Assembly: GCF_900128965.1 (NCBI RefSeq) | Contig: NZ_FQUL01000002.1 | Location: forward strand, 62,001-126,000 | Length of the DNA: 64,000 nucleotides | Direction: 5' to 3' | From: Ferrithrix thermotolerans DSM 19514 | GTDB lineage: Bacteria > Actinomycetota > Acidimicrobiia > Acidimicrobiales > Acidimicrobiaceae | Shown: positions 12,301-34,618 of the stretch, one piece after another | Layout of the letters: every line of letters begins with the position of its first letter | Position numbering within the stretch: the first letter of the stretch is position 1 | Program-made: the position numbers and the translations under genes | The notes under the pieces: model-generated | What the model was told of the DNA's origin: nothing | Databases searched by the model: none | What the model saw: the letters and a program-made list of their open reading frames with translations, nothing else

Positions 12301-13647
12301 ATGGGTAGCTGGAAGAAGATTGTGTCTGTACGCTTCGTGTTTGCGCTTGCTATGGTCGTAACTTTATGGACTTCCCTCACCAAAGCAGCCTCTTATCAAC
12401 TGCGAGATCAAAGCCTTGTACAAAGTTCAAATCCCCTTAGCGTGGGGGGCTATACAGAAGTTGCCTCTGACGGGGGTATATTCAACTTTGGAACGTCCCG
12501 GTTTTATGGTTCTATGGGTGGTCAACCCCTAAATCAGCCGATAGTAGGGATGGCCTCAGACCCACAGACCGGGGGATATTGGCTTGTGGCCGCAGATGGC
12601 GGAGTTTTTTCCTTCAACGCTCCGTTTTTTGGATCCATGGGTGGACATCCACTAAACAAACCGATCGTTGGAATGGCTTCAACTCCTGATGGACGTGGAT
12701 ATTGGCTTGTGGCCGCAGATGGCGGAATCTTCACCTTTGGAGATGCGGCTTTTTATGGTTCTATGGGTGGTCAACCCCTAAATCAGCCGATAGTAGGGAT
12801 GGCCTCAGACCCACAGACCGGGGGATATTGGCTTGTGGCCGCAGATGGCGGAGTTTTTTCCTTCAACGCTCCGTTTTTTGGATCCATGGGTGGACATCCA
12901 CTAAACAAACCGATCGTTGGAATGGCTGCGGTGCCACCAACTTCAACGCTTCTAAGTCCGGGGGCTCAGGGTTTCGACTTGTCCAACTTCCAATGTCAAG
13001 ACTATCAGGGAGCAACCGGTGGAGTGTTTTACATTGATGAGGTTTCCGGAGGGCCATTCTTCAATAACACCTGCCTCACCCAGGAGGCTAGCTACTTCGG
13101 TTCTGCGTCGGCTCAGGGGTATATCTTTATGGGCAATACAGTACCGCCTCCACCAAATGCACCGCCTCCACCACCTTGCCCAGCACAACTAGCACCTACC
13201 CAATGCCCTTACTATCAGGTGGGCTACCAAGAAGCGATGAGCTCTTACACCTATGCAACCCAGACATCTCAGGTATTCCCCACCATTTGGTGGCTCGACG
13301 TCGAGGGCAACGACTGTGCAGCTTTTACAAACGGTCAGTGGTCCGTCGAAGGCGGCGGACAAGGAGCATGCTCCCCAAATCCGACGTACAATACAGCCGC
13401 AAATGCAGCGACGATTCAAGGAGCGGTCGACTTTCTTGAAAGCGTAAAAGGACTGACCGTAGGTATCTACTCCACATCTACCTACTGGTCAAGTATCACC
13501 GGCGACCTGATTCTCCCCATAGGTACCCCGCTTTGGGAACCAGTTATCGGGGGTAGTTGCAGTAACGCACTGGCCTTTGGCGGCGGATCAATATCTATAG
13601 TCCAGTATCAGATAACAGGAACATACGACCAAGACGTAGCCTGCTAG
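12301..13647 (+). CDS. Secreted repeat protein with GH25-like lysozyme domain
   Basis: 448 residues. A signal peptide ends near 'SLTKA-ASYQ' (about 29/30). Residues 51-212 hold four repeats of about 41 residues with the pattern 'YWLVAADGGxFxF...GSMGGxPLNxPIVGMA', a repeat type seen on many secreted Acidimicrobiia proteins. From about 222 a TIM-barrel-like domain begins with 'GFDLSNFQ' (D226) and includes 'IWWLDVEGND' (D333, E335), 'VGIYSTSTYW' and 'ISIVQYQ'. These fit the DxE chemistry of family 25 muramidases or the related DUF1906 fold. A Pro-rich insert (about 281-293) interrupts the domain. It probably acts on peptidoglycan or binds the cell surface. AGGGAG lies nine bases before the ATG. 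The repeats include an exact DNA duplication (see repeat entries). Confidence 0.72.
   Translation: MGSWKKIVSVRFVFALAMVVTLWTSLTKAASYQLRDQSLVQSSNPLSVGGYTEVASDGGIFNFGTSRFYGSMGGQPLNQPIVGMASDPQTGGYWLVAADGGVFSFNAPFFGSMGGHPLNKPIVGMASTPDGRGYWLVAADGGIFTFGDAAFYGSMGGQPLNQPIVGMASDPQTGGYWLVAADGGVFSFNAPFFGSMGGHPLNKPIVGMAAVPPTSTLLSPGAQGFDLSNFQCQDYQGATGGVFYIDEVSGGPFFNNTCLTQEASYFGSASAQGYIFMGNTVPPPPNAPPPPPCPAQLAPTQCPYYQVGYQEAMSSYTYATQTSQVFPTIWWLDVEGNDCAAFTNGQWSVEGGGQGACSPNPTYNTAANAATIQGAVDFLESVKGLTVGIYSTSTYWSSITGDLILPIGTPLWEPVIGGSCSNALAFGGGSISIVQYQITGTYDQDVAC
12502..12678 (+). repeat. 177-base perfect direct repeat, copy 1
   Basis: This 177-base stretch inside the lysozyme-like gene is identical, base for base, to 12751-12927. 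The offset is 249 bases (83 codons), so the frame is kept. It encodes the second half of one 'GSMGG' repeat and most of the next. Confidence 0.95.
12751..12927 (+). repeat. 177-base perfect direct repeat, copy 2
   Basis: Second identical copy of 12502-12678. The 72 bases between the copies are also related to repeat-unit sequence. Silent positions are identical too, which points to recent duplication or gene conversion. Confidence 0.95.
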
Positions 13648-14654: not shown

Positions 14655-14869
14655 AGGACAACACGATAAAGCATAACATAGGAGAGAGCAGTCGATGTCC
14701 GTCGAGGATAAGAACCAATCTAAATCTCAAAAAGATTGCAAATGGTTGTAACCAACAGAAACCGACTGCGGTCTAACCAATGTAAGTCGTAATAAATTTC
14801 GGTGAAGCAAGTAGATCGTCGGAAACGGTCATGTAAAGTTAGGTGACGGTTCTCGGGGAGGGAGTCAAT

Positions 14870-16066
14870 TTGATCTGTTTTGTATTTCCCGGACAGGGTT
14901 CCCAGCGTGAGAAGATGGGTGAAGCATGGACAGATCATCCGTCATGGGAGCTCGTTGAAGAAGCATCACAGGTAGCAAATCGGGATCTGGGCCACTTATT
15001 GCTGAGCGCTGACTCAGCCGAACTCTCCATGACGCGCAACACCCAGATATCGACGTTCCTTATGTCGATGATTGCACTCGACTCGATAGAGCGGCTCGGT
15101 ATCTCGCCTCAGATCTGCGCCGGACACTCGCTAGGTGAGTACTCCGCCCTAGTGGGAGCAGGAGCCATGACCTTCGATGCAGCAGTGAAGCTCGTAGCAG
15201 AGCGTGGCGAGGCGATGCAGCTTGCTGCAGAAGAGAATCCTGGTGCAATGGCAGCAGTCTTAGGGGCATCAGACGAGTCTGTCCTAAGCCTATGTGATGC
15301 AGCGGGAGAAGGTGTCTTCATTGCAAACTACAACTCCGATGGTCAGACCGTTGTTGCTGGAACCATCGAAGCGATCGATAGGCTCATCGCCCTACACAAG
15401 GACTTCGGTATTAAAAGAGTTATCAAGATTCCAGTCGGCGGTGGATTCCATACACCACTTATCAATTCAGCACAACCCAGATTGAAAAAGGCTCTCGGAG
15501 CCACTCGGTTCTACGATTCCGACATACCCGTCATATCGAACGTAGACGCTCGGGAACACTCAAAGGCGTCTGAGTGGCCAGAGCTACTGCTTGAACAGCT
15601 ATGTTCGCCCGTCCTTTGGAAACAAAGTATGGAGTTGTTGCGGAAGAGCTCGCCAAAGCTAGTAGTTGAAGTCGGTCCTGGTGGCGTGCTTACAGGGCTA
15701 TTCAAACGTTCTATGCCCGAGGTAACAGCTCTGTCGGTATCAAAGCCCGAGGATCTTGAGTTCCTAATTGAACAGGTTGCCGATCAGGGTCCTCTGCACG
15801 AGTGGGCAACTTACCACCACGGTGAACGCTTCTACTCCTCCGAGCGTCTTGTAGTTGCCGATTGCGCAGGAGTATTCTCCCCAGATCCAGAGCTAGTAAA
15901 AACTGGCCAAGGTGCAACGATACTTGTAGGGCAACGAGTTGGCTCGATCGGATCCAGGGACGTAAGATCACCGTTTTCTGGAAAGCTCCAGAGCATGATA
16001 GCGGTGGAGGGAGAGAGAGTCACGACAGGCCAGCCTATAGCGTGGTTACAAAGCGAGGAGATGTAG
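14870..16066 (+). CDS. fabD: Malonyl-CoA:ACP transacylase with C-terminal biotinyl-like domain
   Basis: 398 residues from the TTG at 14870. The TTG has GGGAG(G) just upstream and gives the classic start 'MICFVFPGQGSQ'. The transacylase part (1-300) has catalytic S87 in 'GHSLGE' and H194 in 'GGGFHTPL'. It moves malonyl groups from CoA to ACP for chain elongation. FabD is normally about 310 residues; here residues about 326-398 add a biotinyl/lipoyl-type barrel ('SPFSG...GERVTTGQPIAWL'). The hairpin that should carry EAMKM reads 'GSIGSRD', so there is no lysine to biotinylate. First gene of a fabD-fabH-fabG-acpP-fabF operon; fabH starts five bases after its stop. The transacylase call is firm; the role of the extra domain is unknown. 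Confidence 0.93.
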   Translation: MICFVFPGQGSQREKMGEAWTDHPSWELVEEASQVANRDLGHLLLSADSAELSMTRNTQISTFLMSMIALDSIERLGISPQICAGHSLGEYSALVGAGAMTFDAAVKLVAERGEAMQLAAEENPGAMAAVLGASDESVLSLCDAAGEGVFIANYNSDGQTVVAGTIEAIDRLIALHKDFGIKRVIKIPVGGGFHTPLINSAQPRLKKALGATRFYDSDIPVISNVDAREHSKASEWPELLLEQLCSPVLWKQSMELLRKSSPKLVVEVGPGGVLTGLFKRSMPEVTALSVSKPEDLEFLIEQVADQGPLHEWATYHHGERFYSSERLVVADCAGVFSPDPELVKTGQGATILVGQRVGSIGSRDVRSPFSGKLQSMIAVEGERVTTGQPIAWLQSEEM

Positions 16067-16070
16067 ATAT

Positions 16071-17006
16071 ATGGCCAAGGGGTCCAAGATAATTGGCGTG
16101 GGCAGCGCTCTGCCTACACAGGTCGTTACGAATGCAGACTTTGAGCGAAGGCTGGAAACCTCAGACAGATGGATCACTGAAAGAACAGGCATCCGTGAGC
16201 GCAGGATGGGGGGGACCACCTCCGAACTAGCGGTCGAGGCCGGGATTGAAGCCATTAAGTCCGCTGGTTTAGCCCCATCCGACATCGACTTCCTGATACT
16301 TTCCACCACCACGCCAGATCAAACCGTACCGGCTACATCGGCAGTTGTCTCTGACAAAATAGGTACGGCGGGCGGAGCTATGGACCTAAACGCTGCGTGT
16401 GCAGGCTACGTTTATGCTTTAGTAGTCGCCAACTCCCTCATCGTTACAGGTCAGCATCGAGTGTTGGTAATCGGTTCCGATACGTTATCCAGAATAACGG
16501 ATCAAAACGATCGCTCTACTGCGGTACTATTCGCAGACGGAGCGGGCGCCGTTGTACTTGAGGCGACGGAAACACCATCCCTCCTTGGCTGGGATCTCGG
16601 AATAGACGGCTCTGCCCAACCCATTCTCTACTGTGATCACGGCGGCTACATGAAAATGGAAGGCAGGGAGGTCTTCAAAAGAGCCGTGCGAGCGATGGTC
16701 GACTCTGCTAACAAGGCTATGGAAATGGCCGGAGTCGAGGCACGTGATATATCACTTGTAGTGCCCCATCAAGCCAATATCAGAATTATTGAGGCCGCCA
16801 ACGAGAGACTCGGGATCGATATGGCTAAGACAGCTATAGTTTTGGATAAAACCGGCAACACATCTTCAGGATCGGTTCCGCTAGCTTTACACGATGCGAT
16901 AACAAAGCAGATGATCCAGCCCGGGGAACTGATTCTCTTTAGTGGATTTGGGGCCGGGATGACCTGGGCATCAGCGGTTATGAGATGGGAAGACCAACTT
17001 GTCTGA
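16071..17006 (+). CDS. fabH: 3-oxoacyl-ACP synthase III
   Basis: Starts fatty acid synthesis by condensing an acyl-CoA primer with malonyl-ACP. It is 311 residues, the usual length, with the complete Cys-His-Asn triad: C110 in 'NAACAGYVYAL', H233 in 'PHQANIRI' and N263 in 'GNTSSGS'. The ATG has GAGGAG nine bases upstream, inside the end of fabD. Its 3' end overlaps the fabG start by eight bases, so the two are translationally coupled. The operon context is consistent with the primary housekeeping FAS II enzyme. Confidence 0.96.
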   Translation: MAKGSKIIGVGSALPTQVVTNADFERRLETSDRWITERTGIRERRMGGTTSELAVEAGIEAIKSAGLAPSDIDFLILSTTTPDQTVPATSAVVSDKIGTAGGAMDLNAACAGYVYALVVANSLIVTGQHRVLVIGSDTLSRITDQNDRSTAVLFADGAGAVVLEATETPSLLGWDLGIDGSAQPILYCDHGGYMKMEGREVFKRAVRAMVDSANKAMEMAGVEARDISLVVPHQANIRIIEAANERLGIDMAKTAIVLDKTGNTSSGSVPLALHDAITKQMIQPGELILFSGFGAGMTWASAVMRWEDQLV

Positions 17007-17739
17007 AAGCACCGATAAGAAAGGGCATGCCCTAGTCACCGGAGGCACCAAGGGAATTGGGAGGGCGATTGTCGAGAGACTCATCAGCCTCAACTACACA
17101 GTTTCAGCGACATTTCGCAGTACCGATCCGGACCCTATACTAAGAGAGCAGGAGTCCTTACACACCTTTCGCTGTGACGTGTCCGACAAAGACGATATCG
17201 ACAGAGCACTGGAAAGTGCAGTTGAGACCTCCGGCCCGGTAACGCATCTCGTGACCAACGCTGGTATGACTAAAGATGCACTTCTACTTCGTATGAAAGA
17301 CGAAGATTTTGACGAAGTACTACAGACCAACCTCTACTCTACATATCGTCTCACTAAAGCTGTACTTCCCGGCATGGTAAAAGCTAGACGTGGCAGAGTT
17401 GTATACATCTCCTCGGTGGTTGCCTTGATGGGATCGCCCGGCCAGTTCAATTATGCCGCATCAAAGGCAGGCCTTATCGGGATGGCTAGAGCCTTAGTCA
17501 GGGAGGTTGGGTCACGAAATATAACGGTCAACGTCGTAGCACCAGGAGCCATCGACACCGAGATTTTCCGAGGCGCCGGTGAACAGCGGATAAGCTCCAT
17601 AACGCAAAGCATTCCCTCCGGTCGGGTTGGACGGCCCGAGGAGGTAGCATCTTTGGTCGGTTACCTACTCTCTGATGATGCAAGCTACATCACCGGAGCA
17701 GTAATACCCATCGACGGTGGATTGGCGATGGGTCTATAG
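16999..17739 (+). CDS. fabG: 3-oxoacyl-ACP reductase
   Basis: NADPH-dependent reduction of 3-oxoacyl-ACP in FAS II. 246 residues of classical short-chain dehydrogenase: cofactor motif 'TGGTKGIG' (14-21), 'NAG' (87-89) and the catalytic set S138/S139, Y152, K156 ('YAASK'). The C-terminal 'SYITGAVIPIDGG' is typical of FabG. The TTG start lies inside fabH and follows a GGGAAG. Position between fabH and acpP separates it from the general SDR at 36108. The 69-base gap to acpP shows no terminator. Confidence 0.94.
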   Translation: MSESTDKKGHALVTGGTKGIGRAIVERLISLNYTVSATFRSTDPDPILREQESLHTFRCDVSDKDDIDRALESAVETSGPVTHLVTNAGMTKDALLLRMKDEDFDEVLQTNLYSTYRLTKAVLPGMVKARRGRVVYISSVVALMGSPGQFNYAASKAGLIGMARALVREVGSRNITVNVVAPGAIDTEIFRGAGEQRISSITQSIPSGRVGRPEEVASLVGYLLSDDASYITGAVIPIDGGLAMGL

Positions 17740-17808: not shown

Positions 17809-18048
17809 ATGGATAGAGAAGAAGCATTTAGTCGGTTCAAAGACTGCACAGTAAAGGTTCTGCACGTCGAGCCAGAGAAAGTGGTACCCGAGGCTACCTT
17901 CGCGGAGGACCTCGAGATAGACTCACTTGACCTTGTGGAGTTGGTAATGGCTCTTGAAGACGAGTTCTCCATTAGTGTTCCGGAGTCCGATCTCGAAGGT
18001 GTCGACACCGTAGGAAAGGCTTTCGATCTCGTTTATGGGAAACTGTAA
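17809..18048 (+). CDS. acpP: Acyl carrier protein
   Basis: 79-residue acidic ACP that carries growing acyl chains on a 4'-phosphopantetheine arm attached to S39 in 'EIDSLDLVELVMALEDEF'. The helical layout and length are normal. The ATG is preceded by AAAGGAAA at a good distance. Its stop codon overlaps the fabF start (TAATG), indicating coupled translation. Confidence 0.96.
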   Translation: MDREEAFSRFKDCTVKVLHVEPEKVVPEATFAEDLEIDSLDLVELVMALEDEFSISVPESDLEGVDTVGKAFDLVYGKL

Positions 18049-19262
18049 TGCGTCTCACATGGGACAGTAATCATCCCGACGGCGGACTAAGAGCCACAAG
18101 GAAGGTGGCAATTGTTGGCGTGGGTGCTGTGTCTGTGGCAGGCATCGGCAAGGAAGAGTTCTGGAATGGACTCTTCCAGCCTACTGTACCGGGAGTCAAG
18201 AGAATCGAAAACTTCGATCCATCGCCCTGGCTTAACCCCAAGGAACTACGGAGATATGACCGTTTCAACCAATTTGGAGTTGCAGCTGCAGATCTAGCCA
18301 TGAAAGATGCGGGAGACCTAGGCCTGCCATCGGAGAGCGTGGGTGTCTTCATGGGTTCGGGGGTCGGCGGACTCGAGAGCCTCGAAAATCAGATTATCCT
18401 TGCTCAACAACGTGGATACAATCGGGTTACTCCGTTCTTGGTTCCGCTGCTGATGACCAACGCTGGGTCCGCATCTATCGCTATGAGATTCGAGCTAAGA
18501 GGACCATGCGAGACTACATCTACGGCATGCGCCTCTTCAAATCACGCTATCGCTAACGCCGCACGGCTCATCGCAACAGGTCGTTGCGATGCCATGTTAG
18601 CTGGAGGACAAGAGGCTGCTATCACACCAGCCGCCACTGCTGGCTTTACCAACATGACCGCCATCAGTTCTTGCGGTATATCCCGCCCCTTCGATGTCGA
18701 AAGAGACGGTTTTGTTCAAGCTGAAGGTGCTGGAGTCTTGGTCCTAGAGGAATACGAGCATGCGGTTTCGCGCGGAGCTCACGTATACGCCATCATCGAA
18801 GGCGCAGCTTCAAATGAGGACGCCTATCACATCACTGCACCGTTGCCTGGTGGCAAAGGAGCGGAAGCATGTATGCGTCTCGCTCTTGATGATGCCGGAA
18901 TATCACCCGATATGGTGACTCACATCAACGCACACGGCACATCTACTCCACTTAACGACCTCTCCGAATCTCAGGCAATCTATTCCATATTCGGAGACAA
19001 CTGTCCCCCAGTTACTTCAGTAAAGGGCACGTTAGGTCATGCTCTTGGCGCAGCTGGTGCGCTAGAGGCAATTGCGGTAGCACTAACCTATGAACGATGT
19101 CTCATTCCAGTAACCGCTAACACCAAGTCGATTGATGAAGATATGAAGATCGACCTCGTCATGGATGAACCTCGAGACTTCAAAAAAGGGCATGTCATAT
19201 CCAACTCGTTCGGCTTTGGAGGGCACAACTCCTGCATAGTCTTTGGACCAGCACCAGCCTAA
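18048..19262 (+). CDS. fabF: 3-oxoacyl-ACP synthase II
   Basis: Elongating condensing enzyme of FAS II, 404 residues. Catalytic residues: C161 in 'TSTACASSNH', H296 in 'NAHGTST', and K326/H331 in 'KGTLGHALG'. The C-terminal 'SNSFGFGGHN' loop is present. It has about 18 residues ahead of the usual 'VAIVGVGAVS' start, but the overlap with the acpP stop makes the ATG at 18048 convincing. Last gene of the FAS operon; a strong hairpin follows at 19302-19348. Confidence 0.95.
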   Translation: MRLTWDSNHPDGGLRATRKVAIVGVGAVSVAGIGKEEFWNGLFQPTVPGVKRIENFDPSPWLNPKELRRYDRFNQFGVAAADLAMKDAGDLGLPSESVGVFMGSGVGGLESLENQIILAQQRGYNRVTPFLVPLLMTNAGSASIAMRFELRGPCETTSTACASSNHAIANAARLIATGRCDAMLAGGQEAAITPAATAGFTNMTAISSCGISRPFDVERDGFVQAEGAGVLVLEEYEHAVSRGAHVYAIIEGAASNEDAYHITAPLPGGKGAEACMRLALDDAGISPDMVTHINAHGTSTPLNDLSESQAIYSIFGDNCPPVTSVKGTLGHALGAAGALEAIAVALTYERCLIPVTANTKSIDEDMKIDLVMDEPRDFKKGHVISNSFGFGGHNSCIVFGPAPA

Positions 19263-30862: not shown

Positions 30863-30998
30863 ACCTAGCCGAGACCCTGACAAGAACATCCTTATGGCTC
30901 TATCGCTGCCTTCGTTTTGATCGTTGGTGCCCCGAGGTTTGACTGAAGGGATAGTTGTCCTGATAGCATTAGATTCAGGTTCGCATCTCGGAGGTAGG

Positions 30999-32624
30999 GT
31001 GATCAGGAACAAAGCCGCGATAGAGCGAGATCAGATTATAAGTTCGTTCGATCCGCAGTCCGAAGCAGCTATCACGAATCGTAAAAAGATTATGGAGTTG
31101 CTCGAACGTTACAACCAACTTGTGGCAGAGGCAGCCGCTGGTGGTGGCGAGCGCTACGTGTCAAGGCACAAGAAAAGAGGAAAACTTCTAGCTAGAGAGA
31201 GGTTAGAGCTGCTTCTCGACCCAGACTCGCCGTTTTTGGAGTTATCACCGATTGCAGCGTACGGCACTAACTTCCACATAGGTGGATCCATAATTACTGG
31301 AATTGGCGTCGTCAGCGACGTTGAGTGCGTCGTGATCTGCCATGAACCTACGGTCCGTGGTGGATCGATGAATCCCTACACCCTCAGGAAGAACCTAAGG
31401 GCTCTCGAGATAGCGCGTGTAAATCGTCTTCCTGTAATCAACCTTGTCGAGTCTGGAGGCGCAGACCTTCCTACGCAAGCCGATCTCTTTGTCCCTGCTG
31501 GCCAGATCTTTCGAGACCTAACTCGCCTTTCGGGTCTAGGCATACCTACGATATCTATCGTCTTTGGCAACTCTACCGCTGGTGGAGCCTATGTTCCTGG
31601 AATGTCAGACTACACGGTGATGGTCGATCGAGGTGCAAAAGTCTTTCTCGGAGGTCCGCCTCTAGTGAAGATGGCTACCGGCGAAGAGTCGAACGACGAG
31701 GAGCTTGGTGGAGCAGAGATGCACTCCCGTACATCTGGACTCTCTGACTTCTTTGCGCGCAACGAGATAGACGCCATCAGGATCGGGCGAGAGATCGTGT
31801 ACGACCTCAACTGGAGAAAACTTGGCCCTGGTCCGAGCGTTAGATCGGACGACCCGATGTACGATCAAGACGAACTTCTTGCGATAGCACCCTACGACTT
31901 AAAGCAACCCGTAGACCCACATGAGGTGATCGCCAGAGTTGCAGATGGATCCCGGTTCCATGAGTATAAAGCAACCTATGGCACCTCTTTGGTGACAGGA
32001 TGGGCTTCGATTCACGGTTACCCAGTCGGCATACTAGCCAACGCTAGAGGAGTGATATTCAACGAAGAGGCTAAAAAGGCTACCGAGTTCATAATGATTG
32101 CAAATCAAAGCGACACGCCACTTATCTTCATTCAAAACACAACGGGATACATGGTGGGAAAGAACTACGAGCAGGCTGGAATAATAAAGGACGGCGCAAA
32201 GATGATAAACGCTGTCACCAACTCAACGGTTCCGCACATAACTCTAATAATTGGAGCCAGTTACGGGGCAGGTAACTATGGAATGTGCGGACGAGCTTAC
32301 GACCCAAGATTTCTCTTTATGTGGCCCAACGCAAAGGTCGCAGTCATGGGTCCCCAACAGCTAGCTGGCGTGATGTCGATAGTAGCTAGAGAGTCCGCCG
32401 CATCACTCAACAAACCCTTCGACGAAGAGGCTGATGCCGCCAATCGAAAGGCCATTGAGGATCAGATCGAACGCGAGTCCGAGGCCTTCTTCATGAGTGG
32501 AAAGGTCTATGACGATGGGATCATAGACCCTAGGGATACGAGAATCGTACTTGGCATGGCCCTCTCAGCAGTTCACTCTCAGACAGTTTCAGGAAGAAAG
32601 GGTTACGGAGTATTCCGTATGTAG
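30999..32624 (+). CDS. Acyl-CoA carboxylase beta subunit, methylcrotonyl-CoA carboxylase-like
   Basis: Carboxyltransferase subunit moving CO2 from biotin to an acyl-CoA. About 541 residues from the GTG at 30999, which follows GGAGG; the frame could extend to 30924. The N-half has 'VVICHEPTVRGGSMNPYTLRKNLRALEIA' and 'NSTAGGAYVPGMSDY'. The C-half has 'GYMVGKNYEQAGIIKDGAKMINAV' and 'GAGNYGMCGRAYDPRFLFMWPNAKVAVMG'. These oxyanion-hole and acyl-binding segments are closest to MCC-type (AccD1) rather than propionyl-CoA carboxylases, pointing to leucine breakdown. The alpha subunit gene starts two bases after the stop. Confidence 0.88.
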   Translation: MIRNKAAIERDQIISSFDPQSEAAITNRKKIMELLERYNQLVAEAAAGGGERYVSRHKKRGKLLARERLELLLDPDSPFLELSPIAAYGTNFHIGGSIITGIGVVSDVECVVICHEPTVRGGSMNPYTLRKNLRALEIARVNRLPVINLVESGGADLPTQADLFVPAGQIFRDLTRLSGLGIPTISIVFGNSTAGGAYVPGMSDYTVMVDRGAKVFLGGPPLVKMATGEESNDEELGGAEMHSRTSGLSDFFARNEIDAIRIGREIVYDLNWRKLGPGPSVRSDDPMYDQDELLAIAPYDLKQPVDPHEVIARVADGSRFHEYKATYGTSLVTGWASIHGYPVGILANARGVIFNEEAKKATEFIMIANQSDTPLIFIQNTTGYMVGKNYEQAGIIKDGAKMINAVTNSTVPHITLIIGASYGAGNYGMCGRAYDPRFLFMWPNAKVAVMGPQQLAGVMSIVARESAASLNKPFDEEADAANRKAIEDQIERESEAFFMSGKVYDDGIIDPRDTRIVLGMALSAVHSQTVSGRKGYGVFRM

Positions 32625-32626
32625 CT

Positions 32627-34618
32627 ATGAGCAGCAGAAGTATCAAACGAGTGTTAGTGGCAAATCGAGCCGAGATCGCTTCCCGTATATTTCGAACCGC
32701 TCATGAGTTGGGAATCGAGACGGTAGCGATATACTCCGACCCCGATTATGAGCTGCCTTACGTGAGAGAAGCGACTCTTGCACTCAGGATCCCCGGACAG
32801 TACCCAAGAGATACCTACCTCAACATAGAGGCGATAATGGAAGCGATAGAACGATCTGGAGCCGATGCTGTCCATCCAGGATACGGATTTCTCTCCGAGA
32901 ACGCCAAGTTTGCTAGTGCTATCGAGAGCGCTGGAGTAACCTTTATTGGTCCTTCGTCGGATACCATTCGAACTATGGGCTCGAAAACAGAGGCTAAGGC
33001 TCTCATGCAAGACGCCTACGTTCCCACTCTCCCTCAGGTAGTGATAGACAAGGACTCAGAGGTCGATGTTGAGACTCTAAGTCGTCTACCCTATCCACTC
33101 TTGGTGAAGGCAGCTTACGGCGGGGGTGGAAGGGGTATGCGAATCCTAACCTCTCCCTCTGAGGCCCTATCTCTTATAAGGGCTGCGCAGCGAGAAGCCC
33201 TTTCGAGCTTTGGGGACCCACTTGTCTTCGTCGAGCCTTATATAGAACGCCCAAGGCACATCGAGGTGCAGATTTTTGGCGATAGGTTCGGAGATATTGC
33301 TCATCTATTTGAGCGCGAGTGTTCCTTACAGCGCAGATATCAAAAGATAATCGAAGAGTCGCCCTCACCACTTTTGAACCAGGAACAGCGAACAAGCCTT
33401 CTTGAGACGGCGGTTAGGGCGGGTAAGGCTGTCTCCTACGTAGGCGCTGGAACCGTTGAGTTTATCTTTAGCCCCGATGGAGCTTTTTATTTTCTTGAGA
33501 TGAACACTAGGCTACAGGTCGAACATCCCATAACAGAGATGGTAACGGGACTGGACCTGGTCAAAGAGCAGTTCCGAATCGCGCAAGGTGAGCCGTTATC
33601 TAAAGAGATTAGAGAGGCTGCCCAAAGAGGGTGGGCCATCGAGGCACGAATCTACGCAGAAGACCCACTCGACAACTACACTCCTCAAGCGGGACAACTT
33701 CGAGACTTTTCATTTGACATAGACACCGTCAGGGTCGACAGCGGCTTTGAGAGCAACACATCGGTCTCGAGTTTCTACGATGCAATGCTGGCTAAAGTTA
33801 TCGCCTTCGCAGATACGAGAGAACAGGCAGCGTCGAAACTAGAGCTTGCGCTAAGGCGAGCTCAGATCGCAGGAGTTCCCACCAACACATCGCTTATAAG
33901 AGCGATTTTGAAAGAAGAGGAGTTTTTGCGCGGCGACATCGACACCGCGTACTTGTTGCGCCACACGCCGGCTACGCTCATTGAAACTCTCCAGCTCGAC
34001 ACAGACGACATGAATCTTTACCTCTCCGCCCTTGTTCTCTACGTGTCGAACAAAAGGTCAAAAAGGCGCACATCTCTACATGAAATACCCTTTGCCTGGC
34101 GCAACGTCTATAACTCGGACCTCTCAGAGAGGGTAAGCGTTGGAGATAAAGAGTTTTTGGTCTCCTATGGTTTTAGACCGAAGCTGGCCGTCAAAGTGGA
34201 CGAAAGAGAGATTAGAGATCCAAAGATCGACTGCCTTGATGAACACTACGTCAGATTTGAGGGCAACGGCAGACTCTACAACTTTTGGATCCACGAGAAC
34301 GGCGATGGTACATACATCGTCAATGGCCCGGCGGGATCGGTAAACGCAAGGATCAGCGATCGATTTCCAAGTACTCAACGTCAAGAACACCGAGGGTCAT
34401 TACTTGCTCCTATGCCCGGTACAGTAGTGGAGGTATACGTACTCGCTAACGACAAGGTTCTAGCGGGGGACCCTCTCTTATCTCTTGAAGCTATGAAGAT
34501 GCAGCACGTCATCACCGCACCCAATGATGGGGTCGTAACGGAGATACGGGTAAAGTCTGGGGACCAAGTTGGACTGAAAGACTTACTGGTAGTCCTGGAT
34601 GAGTCTTCTAACGATTAG
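32627..34618 (+). CDS. Acyl-CoA carboxylase alpha subunit (biotin carboxylase + BCCP)
   Basis: 663 residues. The biotin carboxylase part (1-450) has 'VLVANRAEIASRIFR', 'HPGYGFLSEN', the Gly-rich ATP loop 'KAAYGGGGRGMR', and 'EMNTRLQVEHPITEMVTGLDLV'. A middle region of about 150 residues bridges to the C-terminal biotinyl domain. There, 'APMPGTVVEVYV...LLSLEAMKMQHVI' carries the biotin-accepting lysine. This layout matches MCC/AccA1 alpha chains. Together with the preceding beta chain it makes a complete enzyme, probably methylcrotonyl-CoA carboxylase; other acyl-CoA substrates cannot be excluded. Confidence 0.92.
   Translation: MSSRSIKRVLVANRAEIASRIFRTAHELGIETVAIYSDPDYELPYVREATLALRIPGQYPRDTYLNIEAIMEAIERSGADAVHPGYGFLSENAKFASAIESAGVTFIGPSSDTIRTMGSKTEAKALMQDAYVPTLPQVVIDKDSEVDVETLSRLPYPLLVKAAYGGGGRGMRILTSPSEALSLIRAAQREALSSFGDPLVFVEPYIERPRHIEVQIFGDRFGDIAHLFERECSLQRRYQKIIEESPSPLLNQEQRTSLLETAVRAGKAVSYVGAGTVEFIFSPDGAFYFLEMNTRLQVEHPITEMVTGLDLVKEQFRIAQGEPLSKEIREAAQRGWAIEARIYAEDPLDNYTPQAGQLRDFSFDIDTVRVDSGFESNTSVSSFYDAMLAKVIAFADTREQAASKLELALRRAQIAGVPTNTSLIRAILKEEEFLRGDIDTAYLLRHTPATLIETLQLDTDDMNLYLSALVLYVSNKRSKRRTSLHEIPFAWRNVYNSDLSERVSVGDKEFLVSYGFRPKLAVKVDEREIRDPKIDCLDEHYVRFEGNGRLYNFWIHENGDGTYIVNGPAGSVNARISDRFPSTQRQEHRGSLLAPMPGTVVEVYVLANDKVLAGDPLLSLEAMKMQHVITAPNDGVVTEIRVKSGDQVGLKDLLVVLDESSND

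Follow-up and report, generated by a model that had tools for sequence, protein, structure and literature searches.

A biotinyl-like domain without the biotin lysine, fused to FabD or encoded beside it, and its possible link to acetyl-CoA carboxylase

In mycobacteria, the FAS-II operon fabD-acpM-kasA-kasB-accD6 ends in a carboxyltransferase gene for the supply of malonyl-CoA. In plants, BADC is a biotin-less relative of BCCP that binds BC and BCCP and aids assembly of the acetyl-CoA carboxylase (ACCase); an inhibitory model for BADC was also proposed earlier (PMC11926652). The epsilon subunits of actinobacterial acyl-CoA carboxylases (AccE and PccE; PF13822) are small proteins without a catalytic role that are genetically associated with the beta subunit (PMC13118682).

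The window (i.e., the whole stretch of 64,000 nucleotides that was analyzed) encodes a FabD with a C-terminal tail, termed X, that resembles the carrier domain of BCCP and lacks its lysine. Searches of the open-access literature turned up no description of either a FabD extended by a biotinyl-like tail or a fab operon containing a separate gene for a biotin-less carrier, in agreement with the first-pass annotation, which knew of no described function for such a fusion. Judged from that literature, the arrangement is likely previously undescribed.

The FabD-X gene and its operon

The fabD-X open reading frame (ORF) spans positions 14843-16066 on the forward strand, giving 407 amino acids counted from a GTG codon. 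The TTG at 14870 is likely the true start, because the FabD match begins only at residue 11. This match, to TIGR00128, covered residues 11-291 with an E value of 4.7e-75 and scored 252.8 bits, slightly below the curated equivalog cut-off of 260.9. The catalytic Ser, Arg and His were invariant in an alignment that included distant FabD proteins. TIGR00128 homology, these residues and the operon context identify the protein as a FabD, the transacylase part of which looks complete.

An AF2 model of the 397-residue FabD-X contained a confident FabD fold to approximately residue 305 (pLDDT ~90). The malonyl-CoA:ACP transacylase domain, including the last FabD helix, was placed at 14843-15781 (+) using TIGR00128, the invariant catalytic residues and AF2. 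With the confident fold ending near residue 305 in a 397-residue model, the extension amounts to about 90 residues, the same excess over the usual FabD length that the first-pass annotation had estimated. The extra residues begin with a linker (15782-15814, +), where AF2 confidence was low; it separates the FabD match from the point at which conservation of X sets in. The X domain, a putative biotinyl-like barrel without the biotin lysine, occupies 15815-16063 (+), as delimited by a family profile searched against the PDB, by controls and by family alignments. Both half-motifs of the BCCP barrel (RLVVADCAGVFSP and VRSPFSGKLQSMIAVEGERVTTGQPIAWL) were found in the tail where they had been reported, and the hairpin at 15941-15961 (+) indeed reads GSIGSRD in place of EAMKM, about four residues shorter than that of AccB.

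Four genes follow on the same strand: fabH (16071-17006), an ORF whose orthologues adjoin X in relatives; fabG (16999-17739, ORF); acpP (17809-18048), encoding an acyl carrier protein with a DSLD motif; and fabF (18048-19262, ORF). The operon order is thus fabD-X, fabH, fabG, acpP, fabF, with gaps that are short or overlapping. A malonate-decarboxylase reading of the locus (MdcH-like FabD, carrier and carboxyltransferase) was rejected by the FabH-FabG-ACP-FabF context. Upstream, at 12301-13647 (+), the window encodes a putative secreted protein in which near-identical repeats (GYWLVAADGG...FG) precede a C-terminal domain.

Homology, lysine loss and conservation of X

By comparison of a family profile with the PDB, the final ~75 of the ~90 extra residues are homologous to biotinyl domains. 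As a single sequence, the tail had a weak PDB match (E 0.001) and a sub-threshold Pfam match to Biotin_lipoyl (E 0.009-0.013) that covered the second half only. The family profile, A5, was built from 34 relatives (78 positions) and searched against all PDB chains. Its top matches were biotinyl and lipoyl domains, with E values of 7e-11 for the Pyrococcus BCCP PH1284, 2e-10 for transcarboxylase 1.3S and 4e-9 for the E. coli BCCP (positions 4-75 of 78). In hhalign, the X profile reached 98-99% probability against small AccB, thumb-less biotinyl and lipoyl profiles, compared with at most 2.6% for 100 column-shuffled X profiles and at most 1.5% for the reversed profile. By the PDB profile search and by hhalign with its controls, homology to biotinyl domains extends across the whole barrel, and at the level of the family profile it is unambiguous.

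The biotinyl-like domain had been called by pattern in the first-pass annotation. The call is supported by the family profile (E 7e-11 and 4e-9) and the hhalign controls; the single-sequence HMM check of the tail went no further than the sub-threshold Biotin_lipoyl match. AF2 confidence in the tail was low both for the tail alone (pLDDT 36), where the shallow alignment consisted of the window and two close relatives, and for the full FabD-X protein (tail pLDDT <50), again from a shallow alignment. X had no Pfam match to the epsilon-subunit family PF13822.

A lysine census was carried out on 139 distinct X-like domains aligned with the E. coli BCCP. The biotin-lysine column held Lys in eight of the 139, and all eight loci were true carriers by sequence or context: AccB, BC-BCCP, pyruvate-carboxylase-like and E2-like. 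Among the 131 distinct non-carrier relatives no lysine was found in this column (0/131); 71 had a gap and 27 a Gly, and the remainder had Arg, Ser, Asn, Asp, Ala or Gln. X therefore lacks the biotinylated lysine of an (A/V)MKM-type hairpin and, by the same census, the lipoylated lysine of the DK-A motif of lipoyl domains. Lipoylation of X was rejected because no lysine is available. The earlier proposal of a pseudo-BCCP fused to FabD is borne out by the homology and the census together.

In free X proteins the hairpin kept its length, with residues other than those of the carrier, and in the fused X proteins of the window's order it was approximately four residues shorter. The thumb stretch of free X was longer than that of thumb-less carriers and about three residues shorter than that of AccB. 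Ordinary biotinylated proteins are encoded elsewhere in the window's genome: a 608-aa BC-BCCP, a 694-aa BC-BCCP (within the window) and a pyruvate carboxylase. The 694-aa protein, with an intact EAMKM, follows a carboxyltransferase (567-aa ORF) at 30921-34600 (+), and the two form a separate acyl-CoA carboxylase whose type may be methylcrotonyl-CoA.

X constitutes a conserved family, encoded either within a FabD fusion or by a free-standing gene (80-110 aa) between fabD and fabH, and one of these two arrangements was seen in most loci read. It was present in 91 of the 247 sampled genomes of the class (E 1.2e-11 or better) and in further families of the phylum. Class and phylum matches with E values above ~1e-8 (e.g., L131, L143, L144 and L170) were left out of the X counts; some of them are true carriers. 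Within the window's family the tail aligned end to end in nearly all genomes; the survey of close relatives suggested in the first-pass annotation thus found it present and conserved, not absent or unconserved.

On the FabD tree the fused state needed five changes, at least three of them forced by well-supported branches, showing that X has switched repeatedly between fused and free. X stayed beside fabH with fabD located elsewhere in G042 and in some genomes of the phylum. In one genome (G050, locus L053), a FabD without the fusion was present in addition to the fused FabD. Two loci (L128 in G070 and L129 in G064) contained a diverged free X away from the fab genes and close to efp and nusB, in genomes with no fab-type AccD (defined below); these X proteins may be a separate branch with a different partner.

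The GER and QPxAWL motifs of X were nearly invariant. In comparisons among the three closest relatives, the tail had a pN of 0.11-0.16 versus a pS of 0.68-0.85, values that indicate purifying selection with synonymous sites near saturation. The lengths of the parts of X varied, and one FabD-fused X (L047 in G055) carried an insertion of ~40 residues inside the putative barrel.

Linkage of X to a divergent carboxyltransferase

X loci were searched with the carboxyltransferases of the window's genome. The AccD proteins formed distinct groups: the PccB-like type (orthologue of G000:C46), which every one of the 52 first-set genomes encodes at 53% identity or more; the fab-type AccD (orthologue of G000:C69:44161-45471), divergent and forming a single clade (SH-aLRT 100); and a third clade containing the X-linked AccDs of G547 and G372. 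The fab-type AccD is shorter at the N terminus, its blast alignments to the PccB-like protein starting at approximately residue 56-122. The idea that X fills this missing region was set aside, as the X-linked AccDs of G547 and G372 possess it. PF03255 (ACCA) matched all genomes and could not serve to tell carboxylase types apart. The PccB-type AccD is followed by a 66-aa ORF that was weighed as an epsilon subunit and had no Pfam match.

In many relatives accD directly followed fabF in the same operon, often as the last gene of the fab operon. In 23 genomes the gene for the fab-type AccD lay in the same orientation as X and downstream of it, typically at a distance of 3.2-3.9 kb. Two genomes contained X-accD pairs apart from fabD: in G547 accD begins 3 bp after X, and in G213 the pair lies away from the fab genes. 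G010 and G084 carry both X and the fab-type AccD. Neither the window's genome nor G010 has its fab-type accD near fabD; in both (L160 and L270) it comes immediately after an amine-oxidase-type gene (FAD-dependent, phytoene-desaturase-like) of the same orientation.

The fab-type AccD was present in 21 of 28 first-set genomes with X and in none of the 24 without X. A held-out set of 79 further genomes was searched with a fab-type AccD profile (A6) that was checked to separate the AccD types and that gave bimodal scores (at least 592 versus at most 541 bits). The fab-type AccD was found in 51 of the 59 held-out genomes with X and in 0 of the 20 without X (Fisher p 1e-12, a value overstated as the genomes are not independent). 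The eight held-out genomes with X and without the fab-type AccD were G220, G040, G046, G055, G062, G161, G070 and G064. Nor was the fab-type AccD found in the X-containing genomes of families f67, f99, f102 and f39, despite the presence of X in their fab operons. Altogether, the gene pairs, the same-strand AccD genes and the held-out co-occurrence support a link of X to acetyl-CoA carboxylase.

Members of family f23 without X fell among fused lineages on the FabD tree and retained FabD and FabH; in the three that were read, fabD-fabG-acpP-fabF lay together and fabH elsewhere, with no X. The fab-type AccD was found in none of the f23 genomes without X that were searched, and an f23 member with X (G275) had both the FabD-X fusion and the fab-type AccD. 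In families f37, f42, f45 and f51, fabD adjoins fabH; a lax threshold, too, revealed no X between the two genes, and the fab-type AccD is absent. As FabD and FabH are kept without X in f23, f37, f42, f45 and f51, FAS-II runs without X. The other genomes without X (f20, f27, f9 and G061) lacked a stand-alone FabD as well as a good FabH match, and so indicate only that X needs FAS-II. Among FAS-II genomes, X goes with the fab-type AccD and not with FabD or FabH as such.

Possible roles of X and comparison with known systems

The gene linkage and the co-occurrence, together with the parallels to plant BADC and actinobacterial epsilon subunits, suggest that X may act in the assembly or placement of a carboxylase. 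Homology, lysine loss, conservation, purifying selection, operon position, switching between fused and free states, and co-occurrence with the fab-type AccD are shown by the analysis. Building on these observations, X would be a bacterial, BADC-like, non-catalytic relative of BCCP that couples a FAS-II-dedicated carboxylase to FabD, a proposal to which we give an even chance. Descended from a biotin carboxyl carrier domain and no longer catalytic, X would serve a FAS-II-dedicated acetyl-CoA carboxylase made up of an ordinary biotinylated BC-BCCP and a dedicated carboxyltransferase, the fab-type AccD, which we infer to act on acetyl-CoA. Unable to carry biotin, X would keep the barrel and, presumably, a binding surface for AccD or BC-BCCP, and would help to assemble or position the carboxylase. 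Fusion to FabD would keep the malonyl-CoA-producing enzyme close to the one that transfers malonyl to ACP. On this view X would bind its partner physically and assemble or tether it, and some channelling of malonyl-CoA might result. The first-pass annotation had raised docking to the carboxylase with direct passage of malonyl-CoA, or a regulatory role, all of which are conjectural. A more specific form, put forward tentatively and at somewhat less than even chance, sees in X the BADC equivalent of bacteria: the third subunit of an ACC dedicated to FAS-II, a subunit whose fusion to FabD forms a physical bridge between the synthesis of malonyl-CoA and the transfer of malonyl to ACP. Against coupling stand the eight held-out genomes and the genomes of f67, f99, f102 and f39 that have X without the fab-type AccD, the distance of the fab-type accD from fabD in the window's genome and G010, and the absence from X of the N-terminal region present in BADC and AccB.

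The same four families provide the main argument for a role of X solely within FAS-II, as the part of FabD that scaffolds or docks ACP or FabH, with the AccD association reflecting a shared operon and ancestry. X adjoins fabD and fabH in far more lineages than accD, and it keeps with fabH where fabD is elsewhere. However, FabD and FabH operate without X in many genomes, their genes being adjacent or split as in f23, and these genomes also lack the fab-type AccD; the X-accD pairs of G213 and G547 have no adjoining fab genes; and X is homologous to the carriers of carboxylases and not to proteins that bind ACP. A role confined to FAS-II is accordingly considered rather unlikely.

The genetic evidence for coupling would serve equally for X as a decoy at the carrier docking site on AccD (or on biotin carboxylase), slowing the synthesis of malonyl-CoA and thereby tying its supply to the amount or occupancy of FabD. 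An inert carrier fold is expected to compete with the real carrier, and inhibition by BADC was once proposed, yet the BADC literature favors assembly over inhibition (PMC11926652), and a permanent one-to-one fusion to FabD in an accD operon resembles assembly more than a brake; a decoy is improbable. That X is a partnerless structural remnant of a carrier domain, retained as a folding cap for FabD, would fit its lost catalytic lysine, its varying lengths (including the ~40-residue insertion in G055) and the occurrence of FabD without X, but is very improbable given the free conserved gene, the nearly invariant GER and QPxAWL motifs, the purifying selection and the co-occurrence with the fab-type AccD.

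If X does couple a carboxylase to FabD, it would provide a natural and testable permanent link between ACC and FabD, which is a connection that has often been suspected and is difficult to demonstrate. Bacteria would then have a small, soluble counterpart of plant BADC, and the divergent AccD would be the FAS-II carboxyltransferase of many uncultured Actinobacteria.

Compared with known systems, the mycobacterial fabD-acpM-kasA-kasB-accD6 operon resembles the X operon in joining FAS-II genes to a carboxyltransferase and differs in gene content and order; we know of no X in the mycobacterial operon. The epsilon subunits, like X, are small, non-catalytic and genetically linked to the beta subunit (AccD), and have a role of the kind proposed for X (PMC13118682). 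Unlike X, which is a carrier-type domain without a PF13822 match, they belong to an unrelated family. The AccB-type BCCP (E. coli, 1bdo) shares with X the barrel sequence pattern and its G-x-F-x-x-P start, in free X the hairpin length, and perhaps part of the extra length at the thumb position, whereas X has no lysine, no EAMKM and no N-terminal part.

BADC of the plant plastid heteromeric ACCase (PMC11926652), at ~210 aa when mature and with a BCCP-like N-terminal region, differs from X, which is 75-110 aa (~80-110 aa when free), bacterial, often fused to FabD and without that region. The likeness drawn here is one of sequence features and does not imply common descent after lysine loss. Like BADC (PMC11926652), X is a BCCP homologue that has lost the biotinylation motif, appears non-catalytic and is tied to fatty-acid synthesis.
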